Assembly: GCA_008501735.1 (NCBI GenBank)
Contig: QQUF01000028.1
Coordinates: 93,813 to 157,812 of the forward strand
DNA: 64,000 nt
Direction: 5' to 3'
Origin: Calditrichota bacterium
Lineage (GTDB): Bacteria > CLD3
Shown here: in pieces, positions 5,546 to 6,270 of the stretch
How positions within the stretch are numbered: the stretch's first letter is position 1
Layout of the letters: each line of letters opens with the position of its first letter
The notes under the pieces: model-generated
Told to the model about the DNA's origin: nothing
The model's input: the letters and a program-made list of their open reading frames with translations, nothing else
Databases searched by the model: none
Position numbers and translations under genes: made by a program

Positions 5546-5553
5546 TTTTCTGT

Positions 5554-5577
5554 AGAGACGCACGGCGGTGCGTCTCT
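5554..5577. repeat. REP hairpin 1 of RAYT locus
   Basis: Perfect 10-bp inverted repeat AGAGACGCAC / GTGCGTCTCT around a 4-base loop GGCG, preceded by GT. It lies 9 bases after the stop of the RND pump gene and is the first of five related hairpins around the transposase gene. The loop is the reverse complement of the loop in copies 3-5, so this copy is in the opposite orientation. With the T run that follows, it could also end transcription of the efflux operon. Confidence 0.9.
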
Positions 5578-5615
5578 TTTTTTTGTATATTTATTTTTAT
5601 ATTTTAAATTTTTAA

Positions 5616-5638
5616 ACGCACAACCGTGCGTCTCTACA
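5616..5638. repeat. REP hairpin 2 of RAYT locus
   Basis: Shorter copy: ACGCAC / GTGCGT around loop AACC, followed by the conserved tail CTCTACAA. It lies 22 bases upstream of the transposase start. The left arm has lost the outer AGAG bases and the loop differs from the other copies, so this copy is diverged. Confidence 0.85.
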
Positions 5639-5660
5639 ATATTTTGAGGAAAATTTATAA

Positions 5661-6197
5661 ATGGAAAAATATAAAAATAAATATCGTGTAAAATCTGCGA
5701 GAGCAACTTGGGCAAACTATGATGAAAATGGTTTTTATTTCATAACAATTTGTTCGATTGGACATCAAAATTTGTTTGGTGAAATTCAAAAAGATGAAAT
5801 GATTTTGTCTAAGATTGGTGAAATTGTTTCAGAAGAATGGTACAAATCTTTTGAAATTCGTTCTGAATTATTTTGCGAGGCTTTTGTTGTTATGCCGAAT
5901 CACATTCACGGGATTTTGCGGATTTTACAAAACGAAAAGACGCACCGCCGTGCGTCTCTACAGAAGGAAATTGGAGTTGCTTACCGAGCACCGAAATCGA
6001 TTTCTTCTTTTGTTGCAGGTTTCAAATCTTCGGCTACTAAAAAAATTAACAGACACAGAAATTCATTTGGTTTAGCAGTTTGGCAAACGCGATTTCACGA
6101 CCATATTATCAGAAACCCCGAAGAACTTCACCGAATCAAAAATTACATTTTAGAAAATCCCAAAAGATGGAATAAAGATAAATTCTACACTCCGTAG
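5661..6197 (+). CDS. REP-associated tyrosine transposase (RAYT, TnpA-REP / Y1 family)
   Basis: Single-domain HUH-type Y1 transposase (178 aa) of the kind that mobilises or processes REP palindromes as single-stranded DNA. The HUH motif is HIH at residues 81-83 (in VVMPNHIHGIL) and the catalytic tyrosine is Y162 in NYILENPKRW. The gene is flanked by four REP hairpins, two on each side. A fifth lies inside the gene and encodes roughly residues 93-101 (KTHRRASLQ), between the HUH and Tyr motifs where related proteins vary in length. The stop codon TAG (6195-6197) is part of the downstream hairpin's GTAGAGACG sequence. All key residues are present, so the enzyme is probably active. It is domesticated-type, with no IS ends visible. 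Confidence 0.93.
   Translation: MEKYKNKYRVKSARATWANYDENGFYFITICSIGHQNLFGEIQKDEMILSKIGEIVSEEWYKSFEIRSELFCEAFVVMPNHIHGILRILQNEKTHRRASLQKEIGVAYRAPKSISSFVAGFKSSATKKINRHRNSFGLAVWQTRFHDHIIRNPEELHRIKNYILENPKRWNKDKFYTP
5938..5963. repeat. REP hairpin 3, inside the transposase gene
   Basis: Perfect 8-bp stem AGACGCAC / GTGCGTCT around loop CGCC (5938-5957), followed by CTACAG, the same tail as in copies 2 and 5. It is read through in frame as residues about 93-101 of the transposase. A REP element within its own transposase coding sequence is unusual. Confidence 0.9.
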
Positions 6198-6217
6198 AGA
6201 CGCACCGCCGTGCGTCT
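6194..6217. repeat. REP hairpin 4, overlapping the transposase stop codon
   Basis: Stem AGACGCAC / GTGCGTCT with loop CGCC (6198-6217), preceded by GTAG. The TAG at 6195-6197 is the stop codon of the transposase, so the repeat supplies the end of the gene. Confidence 0.9.
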
Positions 6218-6245
6218 TTGATATTTTTACAAAAACATTATTTTT

Positions 6246-6270
6246 AGACGTACCGCCGTGCGTCTCTACA
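6246..6270. repeat. REP hairpin 5 of RAYT locus
   Basis: Stem AGACGTAC / GTGCGTCT (one G-T wobble) with loop CGCC, followed by CTACA. It ends 6 bases before the stop codon of the convergent anmK gene and may act as a transcription barrier between the two genes. Confidence 0.88.

Follow-up and report, generated by a model that had tools for sequence, protein, structure and literature searches.

A RAYT gene flanked by GTAG-tagged REP pairs and carrying a REP in frame within its own coding sequence

The closest described systems come from two studies, each of which covers one of the unusual features of the locus considered here. Quentin et al. 2018 reported, in the main text of their paper, that tnpAREP genes of subclass 2.4 carry frame-preserving REP insertions, generally in a variable peripheral region between HuH and Y, with embedded REPs being a feature of that subclass (PMC6006769). 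In the main text of Di Nocera et al. 2013, the GTAG termini of REPs are described as often providing TAG stop codons, and REPs are found inside ORFs (PMC3733652). Given these two reports, neither a self-embedded REP nor a stop codon supplied by a REP is new, and the locus adds a further clear example of a REPtron whose gene contains one of its own REPs. Relative to the main text of both papers, as far as it goes, what we add is a quantification, a turnover pattern and a description of orphan copies, so that a published qualitative remark is put into numbers for the frequency, position, frame and change over time of the embedded copy.

The window, by which we mean the whole 64-kb stretch of DNA that was analysed, contains five hairpin copies of AGACGCAC-N4-GTGCGTCT with 0, 1, 0, 0 and 1 mismatches to that pattern, all of them at 5556-6265. 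With up to 3 mismatches allowed, none was found in the rest of the 64-kb window, and dinucleotide-shuffled versions of the window averaged 0.06 such hairpins and never had more than 2, compared with the five real ones. When folded as single-stranded DNA, copies 1-4 each beat all 200 shuffles, and 2 of 200 shuffles were equally good for copy 5. The motif search and shuffles therefore bear out the sequence-only reading, which had placed five hairpins around and inside a RAYT gene, and the whole arrangement spans 5552-6269:

5552-5637, no strand assigned: REPIN-like pair upstream of the RAYT gene, copies 1 and 2, feet outward
5552-5575: REP copy 1, GTAG foot 5552-5555, hairpin 5556-5575
5614-5637: REP copy 2, hairpin 5614-5633, CTAC foot 5634-5637
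5661-6197, plus strand: RAYT/TnpAREP gene, 178 aa
5935-5961, minus strand: REP copy 3, embedded in frame, AAAAGACGCACCGCCGTGCGTCTCTAC, 27 nt, hairpin 5938-5957, single CTAC foot 5958-5961 at the right end
6194-6269, no strand assigned: REPIN-like pair downstream of the RAYT gene, copies 4 and 5
6194-6217: REP copy 4, GTAG foot 6194-6197, hairpin 6198-6217
6246-6269: REP copy 5, hairpin 6246-6265, CTAC foot 6266-6269

Every one of the five hairpins has one GTAG or CTAC foot, at one end, which points one way in copies 1 and 4 and the opposite way in copies 2, 3 and 5. It is this foot orientation that makes copies 1-2 and 4-5 inverted pairs, each with its feet outward in the REPIN layout, so that the ORF has a pair to either side. 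BIME-like pairs had been suggested earlier from the two orientations of the loop; the pairs stand, but the loops (GGCG, AACC, CGCC, CGCC and CGCC for copies 1-5) are oriented independently of the feet. Copy 3, whose 20-nt hairpin is identical to that of copy 4, is indeed read in the frame of the gene as had been claimed, encoding residues about 93-101 (KTHRRASLQ, K93 to Q101). The claim that copy 4 contains the stop codon holds in part, in that the TAG (6195-6197) is supplied by the last three bases of its GTAG foot, but these lie just outside the stem and not within the hairpin.

The encoded protein has the Y1 HUH core expected of a RAYT, with an HUH motif (M78-P-N-H-I-H83) and a single catalytic tyrosine (Y162-I-L-E-N-P167), as well as W141-Q142, and, as is also expected of a RAYT, GTAG-footed REPs lie at both flanks of its gene and are dispersed in the genome. 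H81, H83 and Y162 are invariant across 18 relatives (alignment A1). The NCBIfam family REP_Tyr_transpos matches the 178-aa protein with E=1.6e-18 and 67 bits, under its curated cut-off of 80, and the match to Pfam Y1_Tnp is weak and just under the cut-off. A phmmer search against PDB sequences gave no match, and a Foldseek search of the PDB with the AlphaFold2 model (mean pLDDT 78.7) returned 4ER8 as the best fold match (E=5.6e-07, 18% identity). Within this model, residues 93-111 have pLDDT<50 and lie between a strand (81-88) and a helix (114-133). The embedded REP may plausibly be carried without killing the RAYT, as the sequence-only reading had it, since the frame is open and the HUH, WQ and Y motifs are preserved, with the insert placed in this loop of low predicted confidence. 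An alignment of homologues at residues 93-101, proposed earlier as a check, agrees with an inserted origin, in that some palindrome-free relatives have no residues there and the REP-encoded columns of A1 are empty in, for example, L022, L028, L029 and L080. The same residues without a palindrome, which had been named as the mark of a chance hairpin, were not seen in the relatives inspected, where VETHGRASLQ-type residues accompany palindromic DNA.

Judged by its motifs, its insertion and its embedded REP, the window RAYT would best be read as one of the subclass 2.4 type (Bertels RAYT group 4). Both the NH[IFV]H and WQ motifs of that subclass are present (as NHIH and WQ), whereas YILENP is one position off the YIxNNP of the Y motif (PMC6006769). 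The HuH-Y spacing, larger than usual in subclass 2.4 with a median of 88 aa in the same paper, is likewise long here at 79-81 residues (H83/H81 to Y162). The variable beta3-alphaC insertion of the subclass has its counterpart in the low-confidence stretch 93-111, and copy 3 likewise sits in frame between HuH and Y; the lack of a C-terminal extension, the REPs flanking the gene and the largely Bacteroidota relatives are also held in common. Two further differences are apparent: the embedded REP is single-footed here and double-footed in many relatives, and the window's genome falls in a small separate group (9 genomes for its phylum). The 5' GTAG foot, inverted pairs, TAG stop and in-frame copies are shared with the GTAG-tagged REPs described by Di Nocera et al. 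2013 (PMC3733652); the window's stem sequence was not found in the sections consulted. More distantly, the E. coli TnpAREP, in complex with a REP hairpin in 4ER8, shares the HUH/Y1 core and, putatively, the REP hairpin substrate with the window RAYT; the E. coli protein, which is 18% identical to it, belongs to subclass 2.2 and has a C-terminal domain (PMC6006769).

Across the window's own genome (G000), pattern searches in which hairpins were counted singly found 51 sites within 2 mismatches compared with 0 for the reversed-pattern control, and the count of this hairpin that had been called for thus confirms a genuine GTAG-tagged REP family. Some of the 2-mismatch sites are sister stems (AGACGCAAAATCTTGCGTCT, AGACGCAATGCATTGCGTCT and similar), with feet at both ends of the copies examined. 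Several genomic copies of the GCAC family have the single-foot form AAAAGACGCAC-N4-GTGCGTCTCTAC, which is the form of embedded copy 3. The inspected copies of the sister stems AGACGCAAGATTTTGCGTCT and AGACGCAATGCATTGCGTCT (e.g. L037-L051) have two feet, and no embedded palindrome matching them was found in the three RAYTs of this genome. Besides the window's own, there are two RAYT-like genes in G000. In the second RAYT (L017, G000:C48) the in-frame REP is a different one, GTAGGGAACAAAAATTTTTGTTCCCTAC, and several related copies form a cluster next to it. The third RAYT-like ORF (L018/L019, G000:C24) is 323 aa long; its HUH motif is followed by a long repetitive insertion, within which lies a shorter palindrome, GGGCAACCACAAGGGTTGCCC. 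Taking window copy 3 together with these two, all three RAYT-like ORFs of the genome hold an internal palindrome. In-frame REPs also occur in two paralogous Ser/Thr kinase-AAA proteins of G000 (L039:1203-3026, plus strand; L050:1-1890, minus strand). In each, two adjacent stretches of the VETHRSAS / VETQNLASLQ type, encoded by REPs, follow ...MEFVDS in the kinase domain.

Among the first 17 related loci, most had an in-frame palindrome, often of a 28-nt GTAG...CTAC form and with differing stems. For a larger sample, 296 genomes were taken from the phylum to which G014 belongs (Thermophagus xiamenensis, the genome of L025) and searched with the profile of alignment A1, which was used in place of NCBIfam NF047646 since the latter gave mostly other RAYT classes. 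Pooling these with the earlier loci gave 144 non-redundant, subclass-2.4-like RAYT ORFs, mostly from Bacteroidota, a sample that is not fully unbiased given that the window protein itself was the query by which some loci were found. Internal palindromes with stems of 10 or more are present in 101 of the 144, concentrated at model positions 90-120 in the loop after the HUH motif; those with stems of 12 or more occur in 94 (1.13/kb), nearly all of them in that loop. By comparison, 14 of 206 other ORFs from the same loci, some of which look spurious, have a palindrome of stem at least 12 (0.117/kb); in RAYT-like ORFs of other classes the figure for long internal palindromes is 2 of 10, too few to serve as a control. 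Placeable GTRG feet fall in frame 0 (n=61) or frame 1 (n=13) and none in the third frame; in one of the three reading frames, the foot's TAG would be read. In one RAYT ORF (L183:764-1391, plus strand) the same 29-nt palindrome is present twice, first in the post-HUH loop and again at model positions 147-148, ahead of WQ.

We also considered where the embedded copies come from and how they change. The arm 9-mer of the embedded copy was found again in the gene's own 700-bp flanks in 25 of 86 genes, compared with 1.5 expected when flanks were swapped between loci. Only these 25 have a matching copy within 700 bp, and the proposal that the embedded copy always derives from its own flanks is unsupported for the other 61 of the 86. 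On the RAYT tree, a FastTree with many weak forks, stem identity takes 58 changes compared with 82 when shuffled, and stems thus follow RAYT phylogeny; the presence of a palindrome takes 31 compared with 39, which is only moderate clustering and marks presence as labile. The window RAYT falls in a set of 11 rows, most of which have ACGCAC-containing stems; one member of the set of 11, L031, has its AGACGCAC palindrome placed in another loop. Comparison of palindromes between pairs, which share rows and are therefore not independent, gave 8 one-sided and 0 two-sided differences for the listed pairs of 82-98% core identity (n=16), and 238 two-sided and 74 one-sided differences in total for all pairs of at least 60% core identity (n=106); below the 82-98% range, two-sided changes predominate. 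We read the one-sided changes as probable drift within lineages and the two-sided changes as likely replacement by another REP between lineages. A single ancestral insertion kept unchanged is ruled out by the labile presence and by 52 distinct stem types, and slow compensatory evolution of the stem is disfavoured by the closest pairs having only one-sided changes.

Drawing on the anatomy of the locus, the genomic REP family, and the position, frame bias, phylogenetic match and turnover of the embedded copies, we consider it highly probable that this is a REPtron, composed of a subclass-2.4-type RAYT and its cognate GTAG REPs, with repeated in-frame insertion and replacement in one permissive loop. 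The RAYT is thought to bind single-stranded REP hairpins, nick them at their GTAG foot and assist in copying or moving REPs. Copies would sometimes land in, or be converted into, the RAYT's own gene. Those that survive would lie mostly in the loop that joins beta3 (after the HUH region) to alphaC, and always in a frame where the foot's TAG is not read, such that over evolution the slot may be filled, lost and refilled with REPs of whichever family is cognate to the RAYT of the time. Nicking and mobilisation by the window RAYT would follow this scheme, and we infer that the insert is nearly neutral, although 56 of 85 loop palindromes have no mismatch over 14 bp, a degree of order that slow neutral decay alone might not leave. 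An alternative in which the in-frame hairpin arose by chance, as a random palindrome or a protein-coding coincidence unconnected with the flanking REPs, has only the short 8-bp stem to speak for it and is scarcely credible: the 20-nt hairpin recurs in copy 4, the single-foot form is common to genomic copies, the reversed control found no sites and the same slot is occupied in most relatives. The shuffles, genome counts and relatives together rule it out.

The repeated-insertion reading has also to be weighed against one in which the embedded REP is kept for a function, either as a cis site in the gene or mRNA by which the RAYT senses or limits its own expression or as a travelling master copy that seeds a REP family in each new host. 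The same perfect palindromes favour this, as do the one slot occupied in 94 of 144 RAYTs, the stems that track RAYT phylogeny and the embedded copies that are the sole genomic copy. We nevertheless regard it as unlikely, as the palindrome is absent from a third of related RAYTs and its presence is labile on the tree, close relatives differ by uncompensated one-sided changes as drift would give, in-frame REPs are also found in the two kinase genes of the same genome, and a permissive loop explains the position. A heritable master copy would mean that each subclass-2.4 RAYT keeps its cognate substrate in its own CDS, so that horizontal transfer does not part gene and REP family, and that the internal copy can outlast the dispersed family and reseed it. 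This seems to us similarly doubtful; if true, it would explain the matching of RAYT and REP across such transfer. The orphan copies occur in three genomes (G049, G246 and G194), where no match to the embedded AGACAGGGCATGCCCTGTCT within 3 mismatches occurs anywhere else in the genome. A different stem, mostly AGACGCACTGCAGTGCGTCT-like, has 32 sites in G049 and 38 in G194, and is carried internally by a second RAYT of G049 (L216).
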